A stretch of 64,000 bases of DNA, from assembly GCA_949317995.1 (NCBI GenBank), contig OX439047.1, positions 32,216,950 to 32,280,949 on the forward strand, in the 5' to 3' direction. Within the stretch, counting starts at the first letter, position 1; every line of letters starts with the position of its first letter. The translations under genes and the position numbers were made by a program. The stretch comes from Acholoe squamosa. Lineage: Eukaryota > Annelida > Polychaeta > Phyllodocida > Polynoidae. Under the pieces are notes generated by a model. That model searched no databases. It was not told the DNA's origin and worked only from the letters and a program-made list of their open reading frames with translations. This document shows, in pieces, positions 13,743 through 64,000 of this stretch.

Positions 13743-14171
13743 ATCAGAATTAAGTGGCCTTGGTTATCTTTTTTTCCGCTTCTTCTTCACACTTTTAATT
13801 AAAATCATTTTGTGGCATTTTGAAGAATCTTTATAATATGACAGTTTCAATTTACAATCAAAATTAATTATTGTGAGCTTGTGAGCTGGGTTTGTTTTTA
13901 GTTCTCACTGTAAAAGAAAGTCATCAAAATAACACGGATCGCTGGTAAATTCAACAATCATCTCTTAAAGTGTATAATTCAAGATATGCCATCTTGATAT
14001 CATATTTCTTTCTGACATATCTTAAAGTACAGAATGGCTCAAACACATCGCTGTGCACGTCATCACAATGGGAACTTGATAGTCAGTTTTGCCATCTCAG
14101 CAGTGTACATGTATTATAAATACACCAACTTCTCATCCTTTCCTCTTACAGGTGAAGACAGTTATATAGAC

Positions 14172-16355
14172 ATGGCCGACATTTATCTAAAAGGCTCCAG
14201 TCCAGAGAGGTGTCCAACAGCTGGTGTAACCTTGACAACATATCATACCTTGGTCCTCCGGGGTCTCCACACCTTAAGGCAGGAGGGCCTTCTCTGTGAC
14301 TTCACTTTGGTGGCAGATGGCTGCCACTTCCCAGTCCACAGGGCCTTGTTGGCATCTGTCTCTGAGTACTTCCGGGCTGTCTTCCGGTCTGGCATGATCG
14401 AGACACAGCGGGACGCCATGGAACTAAAAGGTGTATCAGCAGTTGGTCTCAGTAGGGTCCTCGGTTTTGTGTACACGGGGGAACTGAGTATGAATGAGGA
14501 GGTGGTCGTGGAGGTATTAAGGGCAGCAAATCACCTTCAGTTGCAGCATGCAATTGATATGTGTACACAGTATTTAATGAAAAGCCTTAACTTGGAGAAT
14601 ATAAGGGATATGCAGGTATGTATACTAAATCGACACACCACAAATGAAGCTTGTTTTCACTTTGTTAGATAACATTTTTGTATAGGTATTCATATGCTAT
14701 ATTTTCAATCTTCAATATCATCTGTCGAATGGGTAAAATCGATTTTGAAAACAAATAGGTATACAGCCAAAAATAATTAGCATTCGCGCCATAATTTGTA
14801 CATCCATTAAAGTTCAAATATTAGTTAACAAATCTATTATGGTGTCATTACTTACTTAATTCTGTTAAAAATAGTCTAGTTTTTTCTGATTAGAGCTCCT
14901 TTCTTACAGTAGAAAATTATTACAATTTAAACCATGAGGACTAAGATATATATCATGAACAATAGTTCTCAAAGCAAGCGCAATTGATTCTGTTGAAATT
15001 GGTCTCATTTATTCTAAACTGAACTTTCCTTTTGTCAGAGCATCGCAGATACTTATGATCTCATTGCTCTGAAGGATGCAATCCAAGGATTCCTCCTGAG
15101 GAGAATCTCCAAGTTCTCTAGAACCAACTACTTCAAGCAACTACCAATGAACGAGGTGTGCAACCTGATAAGGGACGATAGGCTCCATGTAAGCTCAGAA
15201 ATCAAAGTGATGAAGATCATTTTTGACTGGATTAATTATCACAGGGAGAAAAGGGAACCACTTATTGGCAATCTGATGAAGGATACCCGCCTGGCGCTTA
15301 TGTCCAAGGTTGAATTGCAGACATTAGCCCAGGTGCCTTACATCAGGAGGAACCGCCACTGTCTGGAGCTGATACGAGCAGCTCTTCACTTCAGCAGCCT
15401 GTCTGATGAAAAGGTACTACTGGTTTCTCCCTCTAGTGAGATAAGGAGTGAACTATATGTGGTAGCATTTAGCTGCACAGAGCAGCATTCTCTCCATACC
15501 AGTGTTCTGTACAACAATCATTGGTGCCTCCTGGACACGGCTCTACCCCAACCAAGGCACTTCATCAATGCTGCAGCCACTGTTTGTAACAACTTTTTAT
15601 ATGTATGTGGTGGACAGGGTATCAAGGCTGCCATAAGCTCCTGCCTCTGCTACAACCCTTATACCTGCAAGTGGACCACTATATCACCCTTGAAGCAACC
15701 AAGGAAGAACTTTGAGCTTGTATCCCATGACCTGAATCTCTATGCCATTTGTGGAATCAGCAATAACTTTGAAGTGATTGATGACGCTGAGGTGTACTCT
15801 ATTGAGCATGATAAATGGGTCAGTGCCTTCAGGACCAAATCAAAGATTACTGACATGGCAGCTTGTGTCCAAAAAGACAGAATCTACATAGCAGGAGGGG
15901 TGAATGAGCACTGCTACCATGTAAGAGACTTTGCTTTTTACGACACCCGCTCAAGGAAACTCCAGTCAGGGCCAGATTTATTGGAGATAAAATTCAAACC
16001 GAGAATGGTGTCCACTATGGACAAGCTATATCTCACAGACTTGTACAGAACAGAAGGAATACCTACCCATCTGGAGGAATATGACCCTAAGGTCCAGCAG
16101 TGGAGTAAAATCCCACTGCCAGGGGTCCAATTCTCACGCTGCTTCAGTGCTATCAATATTGGTCCCTGGATCTACTTTATTGGGCGCAATGATGTAGAGG
16201 ACGGCAGTAGTAAGAGGTATAATGTCCAATCAAAAGCAATAGAAGACATTCGGTCCTTCCCCTGGCAGGTCGAATCTCCACTTTGTGTATCTATGAAACT
16301 CCCTAATGGACTGACACGTGGAGCTCTGAAAAAAAACATGACAGGATTTGAATAA
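14172..16355 (+). CDS. Kelch-like BTB-BACK-Kelch protein (Cul3 ubiquitin ligase adaptor)
   Basis: Two coding exons, 14172-14615 and 15039-16355, joined in phase 0 across a 423-bp GT-AG intron (donor CAG|GTATGT, acceptor TTTTGTCAG|AGC), give 586 aa. The exon opens at 14152 behind a strong acceptor (CTCTTACAG), so an upstream 5'UTR exon is likely. An ATG at 14034 lies in that intron and was not used. Residues 33-140 are a BTB domain (LCDFTLVADG, FPVHRALLASVSEYFRAVF). Residues 146-250 are a BACK/3-box region that in this family contacts Cullin-3. Residues about 285-570 are Kelch repeats (LYVCGG at 336-341, IYIAGG at 430-435), several of them degenerate (ICGIS, YFIGRND). By eye it is nearest the KLHL9/13/26 group, but no orthologue is claimed. 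Such proteins recruit substrates for Cul3-dependent ubiquitination. Confidence 0.92.
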
Positions 16356-36245: not shown

Positions 36246-36560
36246 CTTACATCCATGTTCAAAAGGTCACCAGTGAGGTCTCCCATACGTCAGTGAGGTC
36301 TCCCACACGTTGGTTAGGTCCCCCACACATCAGTGAGGTCTCCCACACGTCAGTGAGGTCTCCCACACGTCAGTGAGGTCTCCCACACGTCAGTGAGGTC
36401 TCCCACATGTCAGTGAGGCCTCCCACACATCAGTGAGGTCTCCCACACGTCAGTGAAGTCTCCCATACATCAGTCAGGTCTCCCATGCATTAGTGAGGTC
36501 TCCCAAACATCAGTGAGGTCTCCCCCATGCCAGTGAGGTCTCAGTGTGGTCTCCAACACG
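36246..36560 (+). repeat. 20-bp minisatellite in the LTR element
   Basis: About 15 imperfect direct copies of GTCAGTGAGGTCTCCCACAC. Units abut without unique spacers. Confidence 0.9.
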
Positions 36561-36729
36561 TCAGTGATACCTACAACACAACAGTGACCCCTGCAACCCA
36601 TTAGAGGGTCACCAACCTGTCCAGGTATTTATATCTCACAGGACATCGGTATATCTCATAGGATGTCTGTACATCTCATAGGATATGTATGCACCCCATT
36701 GGATGTGTATGCACCCTACAGTGCATTTG

Positions 36730-36860
36730 TAAAACCCATCAGGAACATTACCAAGCCATATGTGACGTTCCCAAGCCATATGAGACGTTCCCAAACCATA
36801 GGGGACGTCCCCAAACCATATGTGACATCCCCAAGCCACATGTGACGTAACCATTCACAG
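36730..36860 (+). repeat. 20-bp minisatellite, CCAAGCCATATGTGACGTTC
   Basis: About six imperfect copies (CCCAAGCCATATGTGACGTT type). Produces open frames on both strands that are not genes. Confidence 0.8.
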
Positions 36861-37275
36861 AGGACACTTATACACCTCATAGGATGTCTACACGCTCCAC
36901 AGATATCCATACAGTGAGTACATAACAATTATTCAAGCACATGGAACCACCTACTGTCTGACCCTACTCATGATAGAAGGAAAATTCTGATATGATTTGA
37001 ATCATTAGAACTATTTACCCAGGCTCATAGGAAAGTTGTACAACCCAAAGCACATTTGCACAACTCACAGGAAATTTATACAAGTCATAGCATGTTTGTA
37101 CAAATCATAAGAAATTTGTACAACCCATAAGTGACCTTACTCAACCATAAGTGACATTACCCAACTATCAGTGACGTCACTCAACCATCAGTGATTCCTC
37201 ACCAGTGCTGTCATAAGTTATCTCATCCAACACGATGAGTAATACCAAAACAGGAACTCCATCAAGGTTGACTCC

Positions 37276-46060: not shown

Positions 46061-46402
46061 TTAGACACAGTATATTGCATTACTGAGACGCACAGAAAGT
46101 ACTAAAAAAACAGGTGACACTCAGAATGGGCTAGTCCCACTCACAACCATTGCCCCAATCACTTAGAATGCCTGTATTATTGTTAGTGCTACCTACCCCT
46201 TGTTGTTTTAATGTCAATTAAGTCCAAATACCTGTAGTATTTCACATTTCCTTGTTGAGGTGAAGACCTGCATGGACCCATTAAACCACCATTACTGATT
46301 AATGACCCAAATAGTTGTACTCACCTGATTCCCTCTAAGGGAGCGACCCTTGCTTCAAAGGCCCTTATTTTCCCTCCAAATCTAGGGTCACTATAGACTG
46401 TA

Positions 46403-46978
46403 AGCGGGACTGGAGCTGGTTCTTGGTGACAGGCACTGATATGGCTCTAGACCCCTAAAATCGACATGGCGACATGAGGATTTTTTGGCCTAGTTACTTG
46501 AGACATGGCCAATTCCTTAAAATTGACACAGTGACATGGCAATTTCTTAAAATCGACATGGTGACATGGCAATTTCTTAAAATCGACATGGTATCATGCC
46601 CATTTCTTAAAATCGACATGGGACATGGGGACCCCCCATCAAGGGCCCAACTGATAAGAGCTGATAGGATGGAACCAGCATGTCCCTGGAAGCGGGACTG
46701 GAGCTGGTTCTTGGTGACAGGCACTGATATGGCTCTAGACCCCTAAAATCGACATGGCGACATGAGCATTTTTTGGCCTAGTGACTTGAGACATGGCCAA
46801 TTCCTTAATATTGACACGGTGACATGGCAATTTCTTTAAATCGACATTGTGACATGGCAATTTCTTAAAATCGACATGGTATCATGCCCATTTCTTAAAA
46901 TCGACATGGGACATGGGGACCCCCCATCAAGGGCCCAACTGATAAGAGCTGATAGGATGGAACCAGCATGTCCCTGGA
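46403..46978 (+). repeat. 288-bp tandem duplication
   Basis: Two head-to-tail copies (46403-46690, 46691-46978) starting AGCGGGACTGGAGCTGGTTC and ending CATGTCCCTGGA. The period is 288 bp at both ends of the unit. The interior is the GACATGG/TTTCTTAAAATCGA array, the inverse of 1440-1665. Confidence 0.9.
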
Positions 46979-47397
46979 AGTGGGTGTTACCCAGGGACAA
47001 GGTACCCATCATGATCAGTTGGGTTTACCTCAACCAGTGAAATTCAAAATGGTGGACACACAGGACGTCCATACTAAGCCCTATACAGCCTGTCTCTGCT
47101 ACTGAGTGAATAAACCTTGTGGGTGTACTGTGGTGTGGAGGACATAGCCACATACCCACCTATAAATGATAAGTGCTATTAGATGTATAGTCTACATAGC
47201 AAACAGTAAAGGTATATATGTACTACCTGTATGATAAACAGGCATACTTATGTATGGGCAGTGTGTACAGTGATTGACCAGTGCTCTCTGCAATTGTCAT
47301 GGGTGAATGAACACCCTGAAAACTTACTGCTCCCTTGACCTTATTACCCACAAACACTGCAGGGGGTGGCTGCCATTATGTAAACACTGGATCTGAG

Positions 47398-47529: not shown

Positions 47530-49200
47530 GGTGTCCCATTGGGGATGGAAATACACTGCATGGGAATAGTTGAGGGCTGGACACAGAATAAATGATTGAG
47601 CCCAAGGACAAGGTATATACTACCAGGCACATACATGAAAACAGTGGGTACATGCTTTAGTTGCTGAGTGCAAGGGTTTTGAAAATGTGTCACCTGTTTT
47701 TACTATGACTTACTTTCCAGCTGTGAACAAAGTATCACAGCTGGATACTCAGGCTACAGGGGGGGGGGGTGTACAGACAGGACACAGCAGTGAGTGACTT
47801 CTGCTGAAGATGGCAGAATCCTATTGGTGAAATACTAGTACTTATGTAATTCACTGTTGTCATCTGGAACTTACCTGGTGTGGGATTCTGGCCATATGGA
47901 ATATTGAGGATGGCCAGGTTATCAAGATATATACGGTCCCAACATGTCTGTAGCAAAAATGATATTGTCAAATCCCGTGACATTTCCCCAGTCTGTCACC
48001 AATGCCTGTCTTAAAATGAAAAGAATGCTTGATACCCCAAATCATCACGAATGTTAGTATCATTTTGTTAATTCAATTTTCAAGATTTATTAACCATAGA
48101 TCAACAATTCACTTTATGTATTCATTAAGTAAATGTTTGATTCAATTGTAACAGAATAACCAAAACTCACTTTCGTTGCACCTAAAAGTTAGAGATGGAT
48201 AAAGCATTTTTTTTGTATAAAACATTATTTATAGATGGAGGGACTGCCAGTTATTAACAAAGTAGATTTACAAAGATTAAAATACAATCATTATAGAATA
48301 AGACGTTTATTGGCAGAATGAAGAACCTAAGGATATTGGAAATACTTCTTTTCCCTCAACTCCATAAGAGTCAATGGTATTTAGTTGAGTTAGAGAAATC
48401 AAATAGGCCTTTGATAGCCACTGGTAAGGATCAATTTGCGTTAGAGTGATAATAAAACCAATTTCAGATCAAAGAATATGATTGTGTTATGTATAACATT
48501 TAATCTTTACCGTCAAATGTGGAAAGAGTGAGCCGTGAAGAGCATTACCCCATCGTACAGCACCAAGCAGTTGTCCTGACACGGCTGTGCACCTAATTTG
48601 GATTGTAATGCTTGATTTAATTATAAGAGAAATTCCGAGACTTAATTTGGATTTAGGATAGGTCAGTAGCACACCAAACTCATGGAGACAAGGGTCGAGA
48701 AATGTTCTTATGCAATACATAATTGGAAAGCTCATGCCCTTAAATAAATAAATTTAGAAGTTGATTCTTTTGCTTTTCCCTTGCCTGGGAAAATGCACAT
48801 TCCTGCCAACGTGATGTATTTTGAATATGCAGTTTTCTACCCAATAATTGGAGTGTTACCTATTTACAACCTTACGTGAAGTCAGATGAAAGTTTTGAAC
48901 AATGTTGACTATATAGATGACATTGCAAGGTTGGTGATTAGGATGTGAATCACCAGAGAGGAGCACAGTAGGCTAGTATCTACCGCCAGTATCTGCAACC
49001 AACCTGGAGATGGCAGCACCTACAATGTAAACACCACAATTCTAGGTCGGCAAGGTGGGAGCTGCCTCACATCCAGGCCCCATATCCAGTAGTGTATACT
49101 ACAGCAGCCTACAACTCTGCCTACAACAGGTTCACCTCCTCCAGGGTCTTCACCACCACCAGCAGAGAAGGAGAGGCACCTCATCTGTTATCAACCCCTT
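47530..49200. other. Intergenic and probable upstream region of the FrnE-like gene
   Basis: AT-rich until about 48950, then G+C rises toward the coding exon at 49204. No TATA box was placed. No other gene seen. Confidence 0.4.
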
Positions 49201-49203
49201 AAC

Positions 49204-49436
49204 ATGGCTGCTGAAGCTGGCAGCAGCCCCCCACGTGTCAAACAGAAGCTAGTGATTGACGTGGTGTCCGACGTGATGTGACCATGGTGTTGGGTGGGCA
49301 AACGGAAACTGGAGAAGGCAATGGCAGCCGCGGCCGACCGCTATGAGTTCGTCGTCCGCTGGCAGCCTTTCCTCCTCCGGCCCGAGATGCCCCCCGAGGG
49401 GATTGTTAAGCCTCCCGATGACCCTGACAACCCAAG
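49204..49436 (+). CDS. FrnE/DsbA-like oxidoreductase, first coding exon, with in-frame TGA at the active-site Cys (candidate selenoprotein)
   Basis: ATG at 49204 has an ideal context (CTTAACATGGCT). The exon runs 77 codons plus 2 nt to a donor CCAAG|GTAAGA (49436/49437). Residues 15-30 read KLVIDVVSDVM-TGA-PWCW, then VGKRKLEKAM, RYEFVVRWQPFLLRP and EMPPEGIVKP. This is the N-terminal strand, active site and following region of the DSBA-family FrnE group, which normally has SDVxCPWC. The TGA (49279-49281, position 26) replaces the first Cys and the second (C29) is kept, giving UxxC if decoded as selenocysteine. The rest of the frame is intact, CpG-rich and ends at a proper donor, which argues against a pseudogene. 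Downstream exons and a SECIS element were not found; a TGC to TGA nonsense change is the alternative. Confidence 0.75.
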
Positions 49437-50515
49437 GTAAGATAATTGAGTCTGTGCATGACTGACAATGTTTGAGTGTGGTGATAACAATGGTAGTGGC
49501 TAGCATCATGATATCAAAGATCATGATGACAAGTCCTGACCCCCATGCTGCAGCCCCTGACCACGCCCACCACTGCTGAAGGAGCTGGCTGGAATCTCCA
49601 GCACCAAGTGGTCCTTCAACACAACCAACACCACCATCTCCTCCAGGCCCCATCAGCAGAATGGTGCTGATCTCCCCTTCAGGAGAAAGGGGTGGTGGAT
49701 AGGACTTATAGTGGAACTGGGCACATGTAGGATAGAGTATACAGGAGGGATGAATGGGGCTTAGAGAATAATGTTATATCTTTTAGAGCTTTGTAGTTAC
49801 AAACGATGCTTGAGTGGGAAGTGGGATTGATTCAGAAGGAGACATAGGTGTCAATAGTGAATGTCGTAGTTGCACGTAATATAATATAGGACTATGCCTG
49901 ACAATAAACATGCGTGTTAAAAGCCCCTCTAAACTGAGCGCCCTAATGGCCCGGGGCCTAATGGTTACAAGGAAGAATACACTTGTTTACATACACTCTC
50001 AGCCACAATTGTAAATGGGCTATAAAGACCATTTTACTGGGTACAGGGCAACCTACATCGGGGCATTGGATTTGTACTTACAGCAACTACTACTGATTTC
50101 CCAAAAAACCATATTCACACCCAACCCAATATGGGCTGTGCCTATGATGATTTTGAGTTGGGCATTATATGTATATATATTAATATCTCTATTCGAAGCT
50201 CTCTGCAGTGGTGGAATGGGTCAGTGCACCTAAAGGGTCACAGGATCTGGGTCGATATTGGGTGTATTCTATCACTGTTTTCAATTATCTATAGTGATAA
50301 ATTATATCCAGTTCTATAGCCTAGAACCTGGCTACCAGAGGATGCATTTTGTGTCGATATCCTTTACATTGATTTTGTTGTAATACTTATTGGTGATAAG
50401 TGTGAACCCTATATTTTGAAGGCAAAGTACATTGATTACATATCCCCTTACCTGATTTGCATATGATTCTATCTAACTTCCCATCATATAGAAAGAGAGG
50501 AGTGATTGAGAGACA
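49437..50515. other. Probable intron of the FrnE-like gene
   Basis: No matching next exon was recognised. Contains a copy (49985-50105) of the dispersed repeat also seen inverted at 11530-11640. Confidence 0.4.
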
Positions 50516-50519
50516 GACA

Positions 50520-50528
50520 GAGGCAAAC

Positions 50529-50572
<44 letters not shown>

Positions 50573-50640
50573 AGAGCGAGCGCAACAGAGACAGACAGAC
50601 AGACATGAGCAGACAGACAGAGACAGACAGAGACAGAAAG
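50520..50640. repeat. (GA)n followed by ACAGACAG repeats
   Basis: About 40 bp GA then imperfect ACAGACAG units. Confidence 0.9.
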
Positions 50641-50699
50641 ATCATTAGTATCATTCTTGTTAGATAAGTTTTACTGAGCCCCCTAAATGGACGTGTATT

Positions 50700-53380
50700 T
50701 TGCTGAGTTATGGTCCCGATTACACAGCATAACATTGCATCTTTGAAAGGGGGCTCTGCCCTGCGATGCAGCGGTTATGTATACAGGTTAAAAAATGTCA
50801 TATCACCAGGCATGGATCTGTGCATACAATCGAACCATGTACCCTAGGTATATAGGGTTGAGCAAACATTAGGATCCGCACTTCGTAAATATGAAACGGG
50901 CCAACTGAATTCATTGAAAAGCAGGCGAGCATGACCAATGCAGACAACCATTTTATATTCAGGCCACCCACTTTCATTTCAACATTTTACTCGCGTATAC
51001 AATAGTTTTACCAAGTTGATACACTAGATGGCGCTCCAGTAGCCCCCCTGGTTTGCACTCGGACTATTATTATTGAGATACCAATTGATAGAGGCTCAAC
51101 ATCTTTCTGAACATCTAGGCAACTATACACACATAGGTGTGTGTCTCGTTGGTTCATTGATCTACATTCTGGTACACGTCAAATCATAGGCACTTGACCC
51201 ATCTTACGTTGTCTTATCTGTGTTCGATATCTCCTCCAGTGAGATACCTGTGCACTAAGTATACAGCAAACCTACCATGTATTCTAAGCATATCTAGTTA
51301 TAGCACGGTGCACTTATAGTGTACTTGGATTGATGCCAGGTCACCTCAGCAGGGGGATCCGCCGACCCTAGGCCAAAAACATACCTCTACGTCATATCTA
51401 TGTCATCATTATAGACGTAGTCTCAGTACGTCACGGGTTTTATCATGGTTATATGATTGCGATAGTTATATAGAGAGGTATAACCGTCTGCAATGTGTGC
51501 ATCTGATTGGTAGTTCTTAATAATGTGAAAACTTAATCTCTATATCGCATAAAATGGTTTTTCATATTGGATACACTGTCGTTACATTATGTCTTTTATC
51601 GTGGCTATAGATCTAAAGGCCATGTATAGATTTATAGATTTTTTTTTTTATTCTACTATGGGCTGATTCGATGGGTGATCTTTATTATGCTATTAAATAG
51701 CATGATTATAATACTCAATATTGAATGGAGTTAAAAAGAGCCCTGAAAACGTTTTTGAAAACCAGCTTAGTGGTAACCCTAGCTACTTAGTCCACTCCAA
51801 GTACACCTACATCATTAGAAAGCTGCATTGGACACATCACGAGAGAGATGTAGTGTATCATTACTGTCTGTGCCTGTCAAAGGCATAATTCATGTATTTT
51901 CGGGTATACAAGGAAAGCTCGAAAGGCAGCAAGACCTCAGGTGACGTTTTCAGACTGTCAACTCTAATAATGATGGGGATGAATCCTATAGCTCCCATCG
52001 TAGATTGGGGATGATTTTGCCACTAGGGGACTAGTACTTATATTATTGAAGATAACATCCTTTGCCTTGTGAGTGGTCATTTTAACTTTGGGGATGGCGG
52101 AATTCTAGGATATATAGAAACATAAGAATACTTTGGGTTCTTTGTTGAAAAGCCTTTATCAAAATATAGCTATGCTGTGTGTCTTAATCAACGAGGACAA
52201 TTTTGTTACTTTTGAAAAGTATTATACATGGGTTGGGTTTACAGCATGCAAATCATAACAGCATCTGTCTAAGTTTTAGCCTGCTGACGCCAGGTGGCTC
52301 TATGCATCACTTCATGACCTTTGCCGCCAGTTTGGCAGTTGAACAACTAGAACACATTTCCATGGTTACAAGGGTTGGCAAGGTAACCCTTCACCGTTCA
52401 CCTATTGGGACCAGAGGGTCAAGTGTGATGCTTCATTCCAGCATGTACAAAATGAATAGTGTTGGGTAGCAACTCTGGGGGTCATTTAAAGGTCATGTGT
52501 ATGGCAGCCATCCACCATGTTGAGAATAATGATAGACAATTCCTGGCAGGGGGCAATAGAACTATCTGACAAGGAAACATTTCAATATCCCGTGAGTCAG
52601 ACCAATGTAACTTGCCAATTTACAATCAGGGAAGAATGAATGAAACATGGTTATGACCATAGACAAAATGTTAACAGTAAGGCTAAATTGAATCAATCTG
52701 GATGGAAGTTACCAGATCTTCTCTTTTGCTTAGCCTCATAGAAAGACTCATTTCAGAACCCATGGGATAGCCTTCTCATTAAATAAGTACTAACTTACAA
52801 CTCTCAATCTACATCTGGCTTAGCTTTGTATGGTAGATATACTCAGATGATCTTGAAAAGAATTGACATAAACTTTATCTAACTATAAAAACAATGCAGA
52901 AGAAATCGTTAGGGGTATATGAAATGGATCTGTGGGAAACATTTTTCTGCAGGTCACATCATACAGTTAGATGGCCTACTCGATCAGTACCCATTGGTGC
53001 TAAGTCAAGCACTTCTTCCCCTTAACGTTCACTGACGGTTAAATATTCCACTTTTTATGGTAGTCTAAGTGATCCATGAATAGTTTGTGTATTCCTAGTT
53101 TCAGTTTCCTTATTGCTCCTTGGTGGGATTTGAACTAGGTTCCTCCTGATTGTGACTCCTTTGTGCTCCTATCTGTGCTAGTGGGGCAGGTGTTGAAAGT
53201 GGAACTATCAATATGATATTTCAACAATAGACCTACTACAGTGAGATGTCATATGAGGCCCAGTAGACTAATAGGAAACACAGACTGGAGTGACCATAGT
53301 AAGGAAATATGCCCATAGTAGGGCCAAATGTCCACAATGTCCTCAGTAAGTAGCGCGAGTCCTACTTATATGCCTATTGC
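50700..53380. other. Intergenic or intronic, nothing recognised
   Basis: No exon of the FrnE-like gene was found. The frame at 52203-52469 (LLTPGGSMHHFMTFAASL) contains a possible donor GGCAAG|GTAACC at 52382 but matches no family I know. Confidence 0.35.
51021..51034 (+). promoter_or_regulatory. CTCF-like motif
   Basis: ACACTAGATGGCGC matches 13 of 14 positions of CCASYAGRKGGCRS and is close to the fly-type CTCF core. Not within a recognised repeat. Confidence 0.35.
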
Positions 53381-53393
53381 AACCTGGCTCAAC

Positions 53394-53466
53394 GGTTGCA
53401 GCGGTAGTGCAGCAATAGGATTCTCACTTTGCATGTGAGGGGTCTAAAGTTCAAGTCTCGGTGGTG
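53394..53466 (+). repeat. tRNA-Ala(TGC)-like SINE head or pseudogene
   Basis: The anticodon arm CTCAC-TTTGCAT-GTGAG is intact with anticodon TGC. A-box-like TAGTGCAGCAATAGG and B-box-like AGTTCAAGTCT are present, but the acceptor stem does not pair, so this is not a functional tRNA. Confidence 0.6.
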
Positions 53467-53639
53467 CTGTAAAACATTTTTCAGTTTAATAGGAAACATC
53501 TCATCTATTGCAGTGTATTTTTCTAAGACCTAACTTTGTAACTAATTGAGACAGACGCTTGCTTGAACACTAACAGAATCATCAACATCTGCCAAGGCCA
53601 AGAAAAAATAAAAGCGGTGTTTTTCTAGTAACATAGCTC

Positions 53640-53965
53640 AAAGTGCTAGGGGCGGTAGGTCGGATTTCTATTTCTTTTTTTTTCACATTTATATAGGAAA
53701 TGTTAGGGCACATATCAATGGATGTATCAAATTCTTTGATTTCATTGTAAAATAATGATGAGAAAATGGCAACTATTAGAGAGGGGAAGAACACGAAAAG
53801 GATACAGGGAAAACCCTTAAAAAGTAACGAAAATTTCTTTAAAATATGAAAAAATGAGACAAAATTCTTCAAATCACAAAAAAAAAAAAAAAAATTTGCC
53901 CCTGTTTTGCTAGGGTCGGTCAGGTTACTGGAAACACACCTTTTTTTATTTGGCCCAAGTCAGAA
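53640..53965 (+). mobile_element. GGTCGGT-type MITE
   Basis: Left GGCGGTAGGTCGGATTTC, right TTTTGCTAGGGTCGGTCAGG then TTACTGGAAAC. Poly(A)-rich interior. The minus-strand frame over it resembles the + frame at 12783-13058 only because both lie in the same repeat. Confidence 0.7.
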
Positions 53966-54040
53966 AATAGCAGGAGAATAAATTCTTTTCATAACAAAAG
54001 ATTTCCGGTTAAAAACATGCAGCTTTTCAAGAGCATCCCT

Positions 54041-54105
54041 GGAATGGAATCGAACTCAGGATCTTCTGATGTGAAGGTAAACATGTTACCACTACACCAT
54101 TTTGA
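54041..54105 (-). repeat. tRNA-like SINE head (Val-like), minus strand
   Basis: On the minus strand: A-box GGTGTAGTGGTAA (54098-54086) and B-box GAGTTCGATTCCA (54058-54046) with a 28-nt spacing typical of tRNA. The anticodon stem does not fold cleanly, so it is a tRNA-derived repeat or pseudogene. Confidence 0.55.
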
Positions 54106-54499
54106 CTGTGCTGAAAGATCTCCACTTGAAGTCTCATATGATCTGTTCCCTCTTTGTGTGTTGAAAGCTAGAATTCTACTTTTTTCCAAGCCTAAAAACA
54201 TTAGAAATATGCCTGGGACCATATGTCACTTTTGCATTTACTGCAAAGATATGATCATACTCTAAATATTTTAGTGACCAATTCCTATTATATTCCTATA
54301 TAGATAAGATTATATTATAAGGTATCATGGTTACAAGTACTAGAGGATAATAGAAAGGATATTGAGTATGTGCAAGAATGGGTGAGAGAGGGGCTTAACA
54401 GGGAACAATTTTCTCACAAACCCATTATGAATACATAATCATGGTCACATTGTAGAAATAAGATTGACCTACCAAAATAAGTAATCTTTACAATAATTC

Positions 54500-54567
54500 T
54501 CAATGGGGCTTGAACTTGCCACCTTCAGCTGCGAAGTTCAGTGGCGTATCAACTGAGCTAATGAGGC
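54500..54567 (-). repeat. tRNA-like SINE head, unit 1
   Basis: Minus strand starts GCCTCATTAGCTCAGTTGAT with a good A-box (TAGCTCAGTTGATA) and B-box (AGTTCAAGCC), but the D and anticodon stems are degenerate. Confidence 0.55.
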
Positions 54568-56141
54568 ATGTGGAGTGGTTGGTGCTAGGATATGATATAA
54601 TCTCAGACATCAGTGTAGAGGCTAGACCCCTACTTTGCTGGAGTATTCATTTAGAGTCCGACTGAGTATAGCACCATGCCTGAGTCTTGTGCCATACTCA
54701 TGCTTATCCTTTTTCCCAATGTGTGGCATTTAAGCAGGATCAGCATGAGTATGGCATGTCAGGGGAGAGCCTCTATGCTCTCATGGTACTCAGGCAGTGC
54801 CAGAGACTATGTGAAACTCAGGCTGATTCTCTTCTTTTTTTTTTGTCAGTGTTGTGGGCGTATGTACCATCCTTTGGCCAAACTGCTAGAACTAACAGAG
54901 GCCAGTGAGGTATTTGGGATCATTATTAGGTCCACTCTGAAAGGGTACGTGAAAAATATTGAATATGACATGATATTACTGGATTAGTTGTCAGCAAATA
55001 GAAGGCCCTCATAAATTTTACTCATTATCTATTCTCTAAGTTTAACTTTCTATTACCTGATTCATGGGTACATGATAGGCTCACCATTGAGTTTACAAGT
55101 ATATTTTTGTACCACATATGTATATTCGCAATATTTCATTTTCTCACCATAGATAATGTTTAGATGGAGAATGCAAGTATGTACTGGAAGTAAGTATAGA
55201 GGCCTAACTAGATGAAGGAAATAACAGTTATAAACCCATTTCAATATCTTCGATAGCTGTTGCATATGTACAGATTCCTCTTAAAGGTGCCTCTGTTAGA
55301 TCATTCACCATCCGTTCCCGCAGAGCCCATGGTACCTACTATAGTTTGTATGGATGCCTGGAGAGGTTGTCCATAGTTGGCTAAAACATACCAGATACGC
55401 TGGGGTCATGGCTGTTGGTGCTGAATTGGTGAGTGCCAATTACATTAAGCAGGCCCCCGAACACTAACCCAACACCAGGTTACAAGTGCTTCCGACATCC
55501 AGGGGCATACTGATGACACTGCTTATACTCCCGGCCTATACTGTATGCCATGTTTTGTGGCTTTTTATTTTTGTGTCTCATCCTGCAGACTGAGGTAATT
55601 TACTGTCTTTTATCAGAATGGAATTGAAACTGTTATATTAGATTTTGTTGAGTTACTGTTTTCATTTTGTGAAAATAGTGCTATGCCTGTTAGTATGTTA
55701 TTTTTGTAGCAAAGCACTTATCAGTTTTTTTCCAATTTCGGTTCTAATGCTTCTATAGCTGGAATCCCCAAAGCATTGAGAATATGGAAGAAACGATTTC
55801 ATAATGTTTGACGGCAATTACCCTTAATGAGGAGTACCATTATATCCATAATGCAATATTTTCCTTTCATAATGAAATTCAGTTTAGCCTTGCAATCATT
55901 AGCTTAAGTCTCAACTCCCATAGTCTAAACACAATCATCTGCCTCTGAACATAGGTTGGCGAGTTCCTTGCTATTAGCGCTTCTGGATCTGCTTTCACCA
56001 ATTATCTTTAGTGGTCTTCTCGTTGACCTTCTTGATAAACAGATCATTGTCTTCAGGATAGGCATATCTCAGGTTTGGTCCAATGAGCAATACCTATAGC
56101 CATAAGTTATCATGTATAGAATCTCTTCCATACCAATTTTG

Positions 56142-56146
<5 letters not shown>

Positions 56147-56191
<45 letters not shown>
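56147..56191. repeat. (CT)n microsatellite, unit 1
   Basis: About 44 bp CT. The unit 2 array is 4 bp longer. Produces Leu/Ser and Arg/Glu repeats in frames that are not genes. Confidence 0.95.
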
Positions 56192-56193
<2 letters not shown>

Positions 56194-56635
56194 GTGCGAG
56201 TGCACGTGTGTGCTCTCTCTTTGTCTCTATCTTCCACTCTTTCCCTCTACCTCTCTGTTTCCCTCGCTTTCTACTTATCCTCTCTATCCCTACCATGGGT
56301 AGTCGGGGATAGTTCTCTCATTTCTATGCAACTGTGCTTTATATATGGGGTAGTTATATCGTCCACTGAAAGCACGGTGCTTGCTTAATGTAGACTCTGT
56401 AAGCAGTGGTGGGATAGTGGTACCGTAAGCTTTGGCTGTCATTAACCCATATCAAATTGAGGCCCCTAAATCAAACCAACTCATAAATCGCAGTATACTG
56501 TGTTGAAGTAGCCATATGCTTGGTATATTAAAGCTTATTACACGATTTCTGTGATTCTAGTGCTTTTCCTTGATATTCCCATGCACATACCTGTCGATAT
56601 TGCATGGCATGATGCATGCATCATGACTTTTGTAA

Positions 56636-56675
56636 GGTGTGTGGTTATCCAAGGATAACAGGCGCACCTTACATG
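56636..56675. repeat. Hairpin GTAAGGTG...CACCTTAC, unit 1
   Basis: GTAAGGTGTGTGGTTATCC is followed after AA by GGATAACAGGCGCACCTTAC, a near-perfect stem with a tiny loop. The same hairpin occurs in unit 2 at about 58945-58984. Confidence 0.8.
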
Positions 56676-56804
56676 TCATATGTTACATGTTAAAACCTAC
56701 GAAATTTTCATTGTCAGGGTAGGGGTCAAACATGAATACATAATCATGGTCACATTGTAGAAATAAGATTGACCTACCAAAATAAGTAATCTTTACAATA
56801 ATTC

Positions 56805-56872
56805 TCAATGGGGCTTGAACTTGCCACCTTCAGCTGCGAAGTTCAGTGGCGTATCAACTGAGCTAATGAGGC
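56805..56872 (-). repeat. tRNA-like SINE head, unit 2
   Basis: Exact copy of 54500-54567 displaced by 2305 bp. Confidence 0.55.
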
Positions 56873-58446
56873 ATGTGGAGTGGTTGGTGCTAGGATATGA
56901 TATAATCTCAGACATCAGTGTAGGGGCTAGACCCCTACTTTGCTGGAGTATTCATTTAGAGTCCGACTGAGTATAGCACCATGCCTGAGTCTTGTGCCAT
57001 ACTCATGCTTATCCTTTTTCCCAATGTGTGGCATTTAAGCAGGATCAGCATGAGTATGGCATGTCAGGGGAGAGCCTCTATGCTCTCATGATACTCAGGC
57101 AGTGCCAGAGACTATGTGAAACTCAGGCTGATTCTCTTCTTTTTTTTTTGTCAGTGTTGTGGGCGTATGTACCATCCTTTGGCCAAACTGCTAGAACTAA
57201 CAGAGGCCAGTGAGGTATTTGGGATCATTATTAGGTCCACTCTGAAAGGGTACGTGAAAAATATTGAATATGACATGATATTACTGGATTAGTTGTCAGC
57301 AAATAGAAGGCCCTCATAAATTTTACTCATTATCTATTCTCTAAGTTTAACTTTCTATTACCTGATTCATGGGTACATGATAGGCTCACCATTGAGTTTA
57401 CAAGTATATTTTTGTACCACATATGTATATTCGCAATATTTCATTTTCTCACCATAGATAATGTTTAGATGGAGAATGCAAGTATGTACTGGAAGTAAGT
57501 ATAGAGGCCTAACTAGATGAAGGAAATAACAGTTATAAACCCATTTCAATATCTTCGATAGCTGTTGCATATGTACAGATTCCTCTTAAAGGTGCCTCTG
57601 TTAGATCATTCACCATCCGTTCCCGCAGAGCCCATGGTACCTACTATAGTTTGTATGGATGCCTGGAGAGGTTGTCCATAGTTGGCTAAAACATACCAGA
57701 TACGCTGGGGTCATGGCTGTTGGTGCTGAATTGGTGAGTGCCAATTACATTAAGCAGGCCCCCGAACACTAACCCAACACCAGGTTACAAGTGCTTCCGA
57801 CATCCAGGGGCATACTGATGACACTGCTTATACTCCCGGCCTATACTGTATGCCATGTTTTGTGGCTTTTTATTTTTGTGTCTCATCCTGCAGACTGAGG
57901 TAATTTACTGTCTTTTATCAGAATGGAATTGAAACTGTTATATTAGATTTTGTTGAGTTACTGTTTTCATTTTGTGAAAATAGTGCTATGCCTGTTAGTA
58001 TGTTATTTTTGTAGCAAAGCACTTATCAGTTTTTTTCCAATTTCGGTTCTAATGCTTCTATAGCTGGAATCCCCAAAGCATTGAGAATATGGAAGAAACG
58101 ATTTCATAATGTTTGACGGCAATTACCCTTAATGAGGAGTACCATTATATCCATAATGCAATATTTTCCTTTCATAATGAAATTCAGTTTAGCCTTGCAA
58201 TCATTAGCTTAAGTCTCAACTCCCATAGTCTAAACACAATCATCTGCCTCTGAACATAGGTTGGCGAGTTCCTTGCTATTAGCGCTTCTGGATCTGCTTT
58301 CACCAATTATCTTTAGTGGTCTTCTCGTTGACCTTCTTGATAAACAGATCATTGTCTTCAGGATAGGCATATCTCAGGTTTGGTCCAATGAGCAATACCT
58401 ATAGCCATAAGTTATCATGTATAGAATCTCTTCCATACCAATTTTG

Positions 58447-58451
<5 letters not shown>

Positions 58452-58500
<49 letters not shown>
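58452..58500. repeat. (CT)n microsatellite, unit 2
   Basis: Four bases longer than the matching array of unit 1, the only length difference found between the units. Confidence 0.95.
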
Positions 58501-58502
<2 letters not shown>

Positions 58503-59027
58503 GTGCGAGTGCACGTGTGTGCTCTCTCTTTGTCTCTATCTTCCACTCTTTCCCTCTACCTCTCTGTTTCCCTCGCTTTCTACTTATCCTCTCTATCCCT
58601 ACCATGGGTAGTCGGGGATAGTTCTCTCATTTCTATGCAACTGTGCTTTATATATGGGGTAGTTATATCGTCCACTGAAAGCACGGTGCTTGCTTAATGT
58701 AGACTCTGTAAGCAGTGGTGGGATAGTGGTACCGTAAGCTTTGGCTGTCATTAACCCATATCAAATTGAGGCCCCTAAATCAAACCAACTCATAAATCGC
58801 AGTATACTGTGTTGAAGTAGCCATATGCTTGGTATATTAAAGCTTATTACACGATTTCTGTGATTCTAGTGCTTTTCCTTGATATTCCCATGCACATACC
58901 TGTCGATATTGCATGGCATGATGCATGCATCATGACTTTTGTAAGGTGTGTGGTTATCCAAGGATAACAGGCGCACCTTACATGTCATATGTTACATGTT
59001 AAAACCTACGAAATTTTCATTGTCAGG

Positions 59028-59095
59028 GTAGGGGTCAAACCTGCAGTCTCCTGATCCCAAATCCAACTCCCTATGCATTGTGCCACAGGGACTGA
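59028..59095 (-). repeat. tRNA-Pro-like SINE head spanning the duplication border
   Basis: Minus strand shows A-box-like TGGCACAATGCATAGGG, a TTTGGGA loop (anticodon TGG if read as tRNA-Pro) and B-box GGTTTGACCCC (59041-59031). The end of tandem unit 2 falls within this B-box, so unit 1 keeps only a truncated tRNA-like end at 56731. Confidence 0.5.
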
Positions 59096-59363
59096 TGAGA
59101 AAGTGTGGGTGTTTGCCTGTATATGTATAATGCCATAGCCCCTACCTGGATAGTAGTGACCCCAGCAACTCTCACATGCGCATAGTTAGAATATCATTAT
59201 AATTATAGAGGACTCGTTCAAGCCAAACCAAAGTGGTTAGAATGCCACCAGTAGCTGTCTGCGTTCTCACCAACCCCTCCCCAGCACTACTGCTGCTGCT
59301 CCCATAACTGCAATGACTGCAGGACGCGTTCAGACCAAACCAATGGCTGCCGGGCACACGTAC

Positions 59364-59430
59364 CGATGGTCAAGTGGTTAGCGCATTGCACTCAGCTACT
59401 AAAGGTAGGCGGGACGAGTCCCGCTCCGGG
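59364..59430 (+). repeat. tRNA-like SINE head (Ser/Leu-type A-box)
   Basis: GATGGTCAAGTGGTTAGCGC is a good A-box/D-arm. The downstream GGGACGAGTCCCGC is a poor B-box. Followed by a T run and no complete cloverleaf. Confidence 0.4.
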
Positions 59431-59564
59431 CGAACGTTTTTTTTCACAGAGTGTAAACACACAATGGCTGGCTTTGAGTCCCGGGGAGAGAAAGATTTTT
59501 GTTTTCAAATTATATTTATTGATTTTCTATTGAATATCTATTGATTAATCGTGTAATAAAATAA

Positions 59565-59985
59565 ATAGTTAATGGATATGTCATGACTTGTGACTGATAT
59601 CCAACAATAACATGCAATCAGGGGGCTTTGCCCCCTCATTGCATGTTACTGTAATCTCCCCCATATAAGGCGCACCTCGCGTAAAAGGCGCACCTAGAGT
59701 TTTAGAAAATAGCCCAAAAAAATGAAAAAGTCATAACTTTTGTTCTACTTAATGAATTCTCAAAATTCAAAAAGCTATGTGTTGCTAGAGCACCCAGGAC
59801 CCCCTACATCCTATTATGACTTAGGGGGGAGTGTAAGATATCAAATGAAAGGTCTCCCCCTTCTGGATCTGGATCCAGTAAGAACTAAAACCTCTCTTAC
59901 AAGACGCGCCTTGTACGTGGGAGATTACGGTATTGTTGGATATCAGTCATGCATCATGACATATCCATTAATTACTTGTTCATTA
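59565..59985. mobile_element. Nested palindromic element, about 420 bp
   Basis: The outer arms TTAATGGATATGTCATGA and TGACTGATATCCAACAATA are repeated inverted at 59929-59980. Nested inside are GTAATCTCCCCC / GGGAGATTAC and a small palindrome GCAATCAGGGGGCTTTGCCC. Contains the ATAAGGCGCACCT motif found in many animal MITEs. No transposase frame. Confidence 0.65.
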
Positions 59986-60383
59986 TTGAGGATTTATTGA
60001 GGATCGTAGCCAAGGAAAGCACTTGTGTATCCTTCGTAATGTTGGTCTTTTTCAAATGATTGACGCATAAATGAAAATGGTGATCTAATGGTAATCCTTG
60101 AAAATTCATCAAAGGCAATAAGAGATGCACTTCTTAAATTCATACTGTATAGAACACAGGTCTATATTGGGGCAGGCCTAGGTATAGATCGATTCAAAGA
60201 CAGATAGCTTTCGATGTAAGGGGCTGTCTGTTGAAAAGGCAAGGAAGGCAAATACCATACTGAAAAGATCAACAGAAACTTTTTGTTGGTGACCTTGAGT
60301 CCCTGGTCCTCCCTCAATGTCACCACAAATATCTTCCCGTCCACATAAAAGACTTCCCATCAATCGACTTCTGGGCTATTAAA

Positions 60384-62520
60384 GTTCTTTTGGTGACTGG
60401 CATTTTGGATTGGTACTAACAGTGATATTGATTTGATGGATGTTGTTGTGACATTTCATAACTGAATTTCCTAATCCTGCTTCCTGTCCACATAAAAGAC
60501 ATTTCCAGATCACACAAAACTGCGGACAACTCCTTCCAAACTGGCAAATTGATTTGGAATTGTGTGTCCACCTATCCAGCTGTTTGGTGGGGTCAGTCTT
60601 TTTTGTTGATTGACAAATATTACGTCCATTCTGTTTTTATAAGACGCAGGGGTTAAAAAGCAATCTCGCGGATTGTCACGTGGTACGAGAACTGATCAAT
60701 ACTGGTGCTTCCTAGCGGGATGATGTAAAATAGCCCAGAAGTTGATTGATAGAATCGTGGGTTACAGAATGATAGGGGCCAGATGAAAAGCCAATCATTG
60801 AGATTAATCCTCAAGATAAGCATGTTAGGTTTGTGGGAATTTTCCTCTCTATTTGTTTTCATGCATGGAGGTTTGTAATTGGCCCCAAATACTTTTTTGT
60901 ATATTTCTGAATACATGTATTATGTGAGGAAATAGGTGCTCTAGACATTGATTATACACATTACATCGATCTTTCTTCAAAATGGGTAACTTACTACCTG
61001 AAAAGTTTCGGCTTTCTTGCAATAACATTTTATCATCTTGTGTTTTCAGAATGCAGTTCTTTTGGTGACTGGCATTTTGGATTGGTACTAACAGTGATAT
61101 TTATTTGATGGATTTGTTGTGACATTTCATAACTGCATTTCCTAATCCTGCTTCCCGTCCACATAAAAGACATTTCCAGATCACACAAAACTGCGGACAA
61201 CTCCTTCCAAACTGGCAAATTGATTTGGAATTGTGTGTCTGCCTATCCAGCTGTTTGGTGGGGTCAGTTTTTTTTTTATTGACAAATATTACATCCATTC
61301 TGTTTTTATAAGATGCAGGGGTTAAAAAGCAATCTCGCGGATTGTCACATGGTACGAGAACTGATCAATACAGGTGCCTCCTAGCAGGATGATGTAAAAT
61401 AGCTCAGAAGTCGATTGATGGAAGCTTGGGTTACAGAATGATATAAGCCAATCATTGAGATTAATCCTCAAGATAAGCATGTTAGGTTTGTGTGAGTTGA
61501 GGGTCATGTTTCAGTGTCTATTATAGTTATTATTTGTACCGAGAAGTCATTTGTTAGGATAACCAATGATGAACAGATTTCGTTGTTTCCTCTAGTAAGG
61601 AATAATGTAATTGATAGTTACAATGAGATATTATATGGTATATAAAATCTCCTGTATGAATGGCATTTATCACATCGGTAGGTTAATCTAACTGGTAATG
61701 TTTGAATTACAAGTGGCTTCGATAGTGATTCAAATTAACAAGGAAAGCAGCTCTGAGAGGAATGATAGCTATATTGGGGTTTGTGCAGTACATGTTATTT
61801 CCATAGGGAATTCTGCCAACATGGCCAGCATAGCCTCACAAGGATATCCATTGTGCTGTCTACATAACCAGCTGCAGCCCCACACATTACCAACAGTTAC
61901 CGCAATTGGTATGTGTTGCTTCTATGGACGGATTGAGCATCTGAGGAGCCCCAGAGAAGAAAATAATATGTTAAAACCTCCCCATACTCAGTCGTATAAA
62001 GAAGTAGGCCATTGCAAAACCATATTATGGTTTTGCATACAATTAAATGTTCAATTCTTTATATTTGAATATTCAGAATACCAATTATATCAATTGGGGA
62101 TGGATTACACTTATGAATTGTAGCCTGATTCAATCATATATAAGAGCCACGGTGCCACTATCATACCATGACAGGCACGTATGTTAGCCTTTGGTTGACA
62201 CCTATCAGCAGTGAGTGATATATTGGGTTGATAACTGAAAATAGATGACTACTGCCACACGAGTCTGTTTCGGCCTGAAGGCATTTTGAAGTGGTCCTGC
62301 GTTTGTGACTAGATCTACTTTGTGTATTTCTGAATACATGTATTATGTGAGGAAATAGGTGCTCTAGACTTTGATTATACACATTACATCGATCTGCCTT
62401 CAAAATGTGTTTTCAGAATGCAGTTCCTTTGGTGACTGGCATTTTGCATTGGAACTAACAGTGATATTGATTTGATGGATGTTGTTGTGACATTTCATAA
62501 CTGCATTTCCTAATCCTGCT
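60384..62520 (+). repeat. Diverged triplicated repeat
   Basis: Segment A (60384-60838) recurs as B (61056-61497), offset 672 bp, and partly as C (62423-62520). All start GTTCTTTTGGTGACTGGC or close. The spacer ending GTGTTTTCAGAATGCA precedes B (60903-61055) and C (62325-62422). The minus-strand frames in A and B share ILRINLNDWL and YHVTIREIAF, but both are short and derive from the repeat. Confidence 0.75.
61698..62123 (+). CDS. Unidentified 141-codon ORF
   Basis: ATG-to-TAG frame between repeat copies B and C. Cys- and His-containing middle (GYPLCCLHNQLQPHTLP) and an acidic Tyr-rich end. No signal peptide, domain or splice context recognised, and codon use is not distinctive. It may be chance or a remnant of the unknown repeat around it. 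Confidence 0.15.
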   Translation: MFELQVASIVIQINKESSSERNDSYIGVCAVHVISIGNSANMASIASQGYPLCCLHNQLQPHTLPTVTAIGMCCFYGRIEHLRSPREENNMLKPPHTQSYKEVGHCKTILWFCIQLNVQFFIFEYSEYQLYQLGMDYTYEL

Positions 62521-62529
62521 TGCGGCAAC

Positions 62530-64000
62530 TCTTGCTACCTTTAACTTAAATCGATATGTCATTCTATAATGGCCATCTGGTATATCGAGTGTAAACCTTT
62601 GGGTGATACCATTATCCTTACAATGCTGGAGTCATATATTATATCGTACAACCTTATGAGAGCGCTTACCAGGTCTAAGTCCAAGCTACTAGTGTGACAG
62701 GCAGATGTGTCTTATCTCTTTGTGATGATATGGGCAAGTATAAATTCATAGGTGTTTATCTCCCATCTTATAACCCTGATCCAAAAAGAGGTTTTCCCCT
62801 TACTATCATCCCTTAGAGTAATGAGGGCTATATGTAGAATGACCATAAGTATCAAGGATAAGAACTACAAATCCACAGTGAGAGGGAGGGAAATATCTGG
62901 ATTACCTCTCTTGCAGACTTAAACGCCAACATCTGAACAGTAATAATGAAGCAGATTGTCAGTATTTCTAGTAGCTTGTTGTCCTATTGATATACCCCTG
63001 GGTATTACATTACCTGTCACCATGTCTCTCCATTGAAGGATCTGAACCTTATTACCTGCACTATGCATCACAAAGACTTGTTACAATGTGGTCTGTTGTC
63101 TCACACAATGAGGTTGCCACTCTATAGGTTTATACATTATTAAAGCCCCACCCCTCCCCATCTTACATAGCCTGAGAGCTGCACATGTAGGATATATCAG
63201 GTTCCATCAGTGCATCTCCAGTAGGATAATACCGTATAGTTACTAGTGGGTTTCCTAATGGAGAGGCTAGTGAAAATGCCCCACAACAAATGCCACTAGT
63301 TTAGACATAATTGGTTTCATTTGGTGACTACTATTTATTCTAGAGGTCCGAGGATTTTATTTGATTCAACTTCCCTAAATTGCCTTGTGTAAATTACACT
63401 GAACTACAATATAATGATTGTACAACTTTACAAGTTCCAACATTTATATTGTATTTAGTGCAGCTCGGGCTTTGATGCAAGTATACGGTAAGGATGTGGG
63501 GACAGATATTAATCGATGCTGGTGGAAGGACCTGTCATGTAGTATATAGATGTGAGATGCTCCAACAACCTTCATGAGTAGCTCAGAGTCTCTGAGAGCA
63601 GCTCACCACCCAAGATGATAAAATGGAGGAGAAGCATCTAGTACAATACAGAATATTGTTGAGTATAAAGTAGCAGTGGGCCCATCGGAGTGGGACATAT
63701 GCAAAGCCCTCTTAAAGAGTAAGTTAGCTAGGAAGGCAAGAATATGTTGGTACCTGGTCACACCCAAGGCATGGCCTCATACAATTTTATGGACAGAATC
63801 CTATTTCAGGAACCCAGTATTGATTGTATGTAAATCATGATGAGATATCATAAAGCCCCATTTGCCACCCCTTGTCTACATGCAGCAGCTTGGTGGGTAT
63901 CGGTTCAGTCCCGGCCCCTGGGAAATCAGAATGCTATCCTGTACAGGCTACCATGATTAATGAATAGCCAAAAACTGCTGAAAGGAAAAACCATGTCGTA
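62530..64000. other. Intergenic, nothing recognised
   Basis: AT-rich sequence with no long frame, RNA gene or structured repeat identified. Confidence 0.45.

Follow-up and report, generated by a model that had tools for sequence, protein, structure and literature searches.

Sec-containing DsbA/FrnE proteins in animals and beyond

Selenocysteine (Sec) in the place of the upstream Cys of CxxC has been reported for DsbA-family proteins of Ciona intestinalis, Ciona savignyi and Branchiostoma floridae. For C. intestinalis and B. floridae, exon 1 contains the TGA, within a portion that had been misannotated as UTR. SECIS elements are described for each of the three species, those of Ciona being of form II (PMC2874816). 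Sec-DsbA has also been tabulated in Nematostella (two), Lottia (one), Capitella teleta (one) and Branchiostoma (one), the forms of Amphimedon and Trichoplax having Cys (PMC3473315), and FrnE (DsbA) is listed as a family in SelenoDB 2.0 (PMC3965025). The main text of a centipede selenoproteome names neither DsbA nor FrnE (PMC4244043), and DsbA is likewise absent from the main text of work on tRNA-Sec. Beyond animals, Sec-DsbA has been described in prokaryotes and Micromonas (PMC2874816), and Sec-FrnE in the green algae Mamiellophyceae and M. viride (PMC6627142). For Deinococcus FrnE, a function as cytoplasmic disulfide reductase has been proposed, with a role for its C-terminal CxxxxC in regeneration of the active site (PMC8945050).

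The candidate gene described here, from the annelid Acholoe squamosa, resembles the Ciona and amphioxus genes in its proposed Sec at the first Cys of CxxC and in a putative SECIS element downstream. It shares with C. intestinalis and amphioxus the position of the Sec codon in the first exon, and its SECIS-like element looks to be of form II, like those of Ciona. It differs from the published metazoan Sec-DsbA genes in coming from another genome and in having a large first intron (~22 kb). Deinococcus radiodurans FrnE (DR_0659, PDB 5cnw) belongs to the same family and likewise has a CPWC motif and a C-terminal Cys pair; it carries Cys instead of Sec, however, and its tail reads CxxxxC where the Acholoe protein has CADC. 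The Sec-FrnE/DsbA proteins of algae and bacteria come from lineages other than animals, and in bacteria Sec insertion relies on a SECIS system of another type.

An exon with TGA in place of the first active-site cysteine

The window analyzed is a 64,000-nt stretch (C13:32216950-32280949) of a 1.48-Gb genome assembled in 63 contigs; its features, together with those found further along the same chromosome, are collected in Table 1. Read on the plus strand, the 233 nt of exon 1 translate to MAAEAGSSPPRVKQKLVIDVVSDVM*PWCWVGKRKLEKAMAAAADRYEFVVRWQPFLLRPEMPPEGIVKPPDDPDNP, where the asterisk stands for the TGA. The exon ends in AAG, the last two bases of which belong to a split codon, and GTAAGATA follows directly on the 3′ side.

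Table 1. Features of the predicted Acholoe FrnE/DsbA gene (extended numbering continues that of the window; see text)
Feature	Position	Strand	Remarks
Coding exon 1, FrnE/DsbA selenoprotein gene (predicted)	49204..49436	+	77 codons + AG, donor GTAAGA
In-frame TGA (codon 26), proposed to encode selenocysteine, the U of the UPWC active site	49279..49281	+	
Pro-Trp-Cys of active-site motif	49282..49290	+	Cys, presumed resolving residue
Intron 1, start inside window	49437..64000	+	continues to extended 71390; ~22 kb in all
Exon 2 (predicted)	71391-71550 (extended, outside window)	+	bacterial FrnE HMM, GT-AG borders
Exon 3 (predicted)	75420-75582 (extended, outside window)	+	bacterial FrnE HMM, GT-AG borders
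Exon 4 (predicted)	79825-79961 (extended, outside window)	+	bacterial FrnE HMM, GT-AG borders
SECIS-like element (Rfam SECIS_1)	81229-81293 (extended)	+ (coding strand)	20.6 bits

When the TGA was read as a residue, exon 1 matched the N-terminal part of the Pfam DSBA domain (PF01323) with an E value of 2.5e-11. Its best solved relative by sequence was Deinococcus FrnE 5cnw (1.3e-9), which aligns the first Cys of its CPWC motif opposite the TGA. The same position is Cys in all 10 bacterial FrnE proteins that we extracted and aligned, a sample drawn from 669 matching plasmid records. A sequence-only reading of this DNA had described just such an exon at these coordinates, its sole in-frame stop being a TGA that coincides with the first Cys of CPWC in FrnE/DsbA proteins, and both the translation and the alignments to 5cnw and the bacterial proteins bear it out. 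The start codon is flanked by A at -3 and G at +4, with no further in-frame ATG between the upstream stop and position 49204, and the observed/expected CpG ratio is 0.74 in the exon versus 0.43 across the 224 kb examined. Given the homology and the three downstream exons that keep the frame (see below), a chance origin of this open frame can be excluded.

Conservation on both sides of the TGA bears on where the protein begins. Mean per-site identity to the 10 bacterial FrnE proteins is 60% for residues 15 to 25, immediately before the TGA, and 46% for residues 27 to 66. Were translation to start after the TGA instead, for example at Met40, the protein would be without its UPWC site and the TGA would belong to the 5′ leader. 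There is indeed an in-frame ATG at codon 40, and annotation once misplaced the Sec-coding part of the Ciona and amphioxus genes in the 5′ UTR (PMC2874816). Yet a downstream start would leave unexplained why a leader should be conserved at the protein level, and of all the alternatives considered here we give this one the least credence, which is to say almost none.

Three predicted downstream exons complete the gene

For a search beyond exon 1, the next 160 kb of the chromosome were added to the window, and the resulting 224 kb were scanned with a hidden Markov model (HMM) of the ten bacterial FrnE proteins; positions in this extended numbering equal the C13 position minus 32216949. Beyond exon 1, the scan returned three collinear plus-strand stretches covering profile positions 78 to 126, 124 to 182, and 180 to 211 (E values of 3e-5, 2e-6, and 6e-4, respectively), all within 31 kb of the start of exon 1. 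Inside the window itself, the HMM and motif searches yielded weak scattered matches only and no exons 2 to 4. Exon borders were placed by eye from homology and consensus, and every intron in the model reads GT...AG. Downstream exons completing the DSBA domain were among the things that the sequence-only reading had suggested looking for, and three of them, in frame and with GT-AG borders, are now in place.

Joined, the four exons comprise 693 nt and encode 230 residues followed by a TGA terminator, the only internal stop being codon 26. No frameshift occurs over the 230 codons, all six internal splice borders are intact, and in the joined sequence the two remaining forward frames contain 10 and 20 stops. 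The predicted protein matches Pfam DSBA over residues 17 to 209 (4.2e-33), FrnE 5cnw (5e-19) and the bacterial FrnE HMM (2.7e-55, in a search of one sequence), and is 28 to 35% identical to each of the 10 bacterial FrnE proteins over 203 to 220 aligned positions. That is, a DsbA-type thioredoxin domain of the FrnE kind spans the whole of it. Its C terminus reads CADCAKI, and no targeting signal was evident by eye. With NCBIfam, the single match, to a (seleno)lipoprotein family, was a weak one, scoring 22 bits where the cut-off is 190.

The clean frame is difficult to reconcile with decay. A recent pseudogene, derived from a Cys-type FrnE gene by a nonsense change at the active-site Cys codon, would account for a TGA inside the reading frame, but it would have had to escape any other lesion in its codons and splice borders. 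In addition, a random nonsense change would yield TGA on the Cys codon with a chance of about 1 in 85, a figure which assumes all single-base changes to be equally likely (the 229 other sense codons offer 84 nonsense changes, 21 of them to TGA). Nor would decay explain the SECIS-like element at a 3′ UTR position, described below, or the presence of Sec at the same residue in the published Ciona and amphioxus homologues (PMC2874816). We therefore consider such an origin very improbable; judged from its sequence, the gene is very probably not a pseudogene.

A genome search with the DSBA model returned three matches, of which the other two were rejected as FrnE copies since by eye they look like GST kappa; this search was incomplete, exons 2 to 4 of the FrnE gene being absent from the three. 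The genomic and viral contig collections that we scanned yielded no relative and no animal FrnE sequence.

A SECIS-like element ahead of a poly(A) signal

In the 2.6 kb following the stop codon, Rfam found a match to SECIS_1 whose score of 20.6 bits lies below the gathering score of 35 (E value of 1.1 over all 4227 families, on the order of 3e-4 for a single family). The element starts 1,268 nt past the stop, and 43 nt separate its end from ATTAAATAAA, a poly(A) signal. Its core consists of ATGA, a helix, an unpaired apical AAA, a small inner hairpin, the 3′ strand of the helix, and CGAT, and the fold has helices both above and below this core, with a long lower stem. The small inner hairpin makes it look like a form II element.

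Measures of folding and pattern alone do not single the element out. Its fold energy is unexceptional (z score of -1.13, with 27 of 200 shuffled sequences folding equally well). A loose pattern scan of the 224 kb, which does not discriminate, produced 191 hits (105 on the plus and 86 on the minus strand), among which the element is not prominent by hairpin energy. A stricter pattern left 16 sites on each strand; requiring a helix I and a minimum of four G/C in the 7-bp helix reduced these to four sites, the SECIS-like element among them. Because this last filter was chosen after the results had been seen, the chance that it implies for the 1.4-kb 3′ UTR, about 0.01, is a rough one. A second AATAAA lies upstream of the element, at position 80705, and a transcript ending there could stop short of it. 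With Rfam, no SECIS was listed in the whole window at the gathering score, or in positions 48800 to 64000 at E values up to 10, as expected from a gene that ends outside the window.

We conclude that the mRNA probably carries a SECIS element, its predicted 3′ UTR extending to the element as judged from the poly(A) signal. The 3′ UTR was also where the earlier reading had proposed to look for a SECIS, and a SECIS-like element is what the Rfam model found there, at a score below gathering.

The same element bears on the possibility of an assembly error or an allele, that is, that codon 26 actually reads TGC or TGT in a gene for an ordinary Cys FrnE. The proposal hinges on the call of a single base. 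A Cys gene, however, would have no reason to maintain a SECIS-like element ahead of its poly(A) signal, and a Sec form of the family has been tabulated in an annelid (PMC3473315). We regard a miscalled or allelic codon as even less probable than a pseudogene.

Signs of selenocysteine decoding in the genome

The genome contains two tRNA-Sec genes with a TCA anticodon, scoring 80.8 and 79.9 bits. A third match to the tRNA-Sec model (47.5 bits, just above the family cut-off) is typed as tRNA-Ser by ARAGORN. Glutathione peroxidase (GPx) matches number nine, four with one in-frame TGA, one with a TAG and four free of stops. In two of the four TGA-containing matches the TGA could be read at the catalytic site, NVASK*GF (NVASKUG). 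From the tRNA-Sec genes and the GPx TGA codons, the genome looks able to decode Sec.

The GPx genes also offer a yardstick for the FrnE element. For a TGA-containing two-exon GPx match, SECIS_1 was found 3.8 kb downstream of the second matched exon at 30.6 bits, likewise under the gathering score in this same genome, which serves to calibrate the 20.6 bits seen here. No SECIS_1 match was found in the 2.6 kb that follow a different GPx exon with TGA, nor in the short flanks of four TGA-containing GPx loci (4 of 8 GPx loci fetched).

Two further observations came from these searches. At the GPx locus C2:69465453-69466318, an in-frame TGA in one matched stretch is followed by an in-frame TAG in the next; the TAG may simply come from reading past the end of an exon, or the copy may be decayed. 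Also, 32 of the 48 listed tRNA-Sec model matches fall in C7:70074311-70120095, at 43.6 to 43.7 bits, below the cut-off of 47, and often lie about 1.06 kb, or multiples thereof, apart. This is probably a tandem tRNA-Ser array; a similar match elsewhere was typed as tRNA-Ser by ARAGORN.

Proposed decoding and function

Each rival explanation needs coincidence to account for where the TGA lies, for a frame and splice borders that are otherwise clean, for a SECIS-like element and for a genome that shows signs of Sec decoding; hence we favor a functional Sec-DsbA/FrnE. We are highly confident that the locus is a functional gene for an annelid selenoprotein and belongs to the metazoan DsbA/FrnE family, as its sequence features suggest. 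The apparent stop at codon 26 almost certainly inserts Sec. The selenoprotein interpretation of the sequence-only reading has thus gained support from the downstream exons, the SECIS-like element and the genomic signs of Sec decoding.

In the proposed scheme, the four exons would be spliced to encode a protein of 230 residues that adopts a thioredoxin fold of the DsbA type, and UGA codon 26 would be recoded as Sec by tRNA-Sec, directed by the form II-like SECIS near the end of the 3′ UTR. The gene's own terminator is also TGA, so two UGA codons must be told apart. Other selenoprotein mRNAs do distinguish a Sec UGA from a terminator UGA.

By analogy with DsbA/FrnE chemistry, the enzyme is probably a thiol-disulfide oxidoreductase, in which Sec26 of UPWC would attack disulfides or accept electrons and Cys29 would be the resolving residue. 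The C-terminal CADC, which may help to regenerate the active site, suggests a second redox center like that of Deinococcus FrnE. A more far-reaching version, which we put forward as an unlikely one, is that CADC is a built-in partner of UPWC, comparable to the CxxxxC tail of the Deinococcus protein; the animal Sec-FrnE would then be a self-regenerating selenoenzyme, passing electrons between its two redox centers, possibly in trans between two molecules.

Other features of the window and genome

Elsewhere in the window, positions 54427 to 59043 hold a 2.3-kb direct tandem duplication (54427-56734 versus 56732-59043; 99.7% identical over 2312 positions), which is either very recent or an assembly artefact. 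A BTB-BACK-Kelch (KLHL-type) gene with at least two open stretches lies at 14034-16355 (BTB, 1.2e-26; Kelch, 1e-16). Two further stretches, 36271-37194 and 46398-46984, hold satellite-like 20-bp arrays (13.6 copies in the first) and a 288-bp unit repeated twice at 97%.

The mitochondrial contig (C63; 15,641 bp) carries, on one strand, the ten genes that were looked for, in the order nad4L, nad4, nad1, nad3, nad2, cox1, cox3, nad6, cob, and atp6. The general Proton_antipo_M model picks up both nad2 and nad4, the latter being matched by its own model as well, and nad6 scores below the curated cut-off. This is the ground order of annelids, and it points to an annelid.

Significance

Animal Sec-DsbA/FrnE is already published as a computational prediction (PMC2874816, PMC3473315, PMC3965025), and in Ciona and amphioxus Sec occupies this first Cys position too, which makes the finding little of a surprise. 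The Acholoe gene extends a known family by one member and does not represent a new kind, and its phylum probably has one published case already, in Capitella. The literature surveyed, as far as its available portions go, held no biochemistry of the animal Sec form, which is not proof of absence. What is known of recoding itself is left unchanged by the Acholoe gene. Rather, its value lies in a complete gene model for a family of animal selenoproteins in which annotation can go wrong, as seen in Ciona and amphioxus (PMC2874816).
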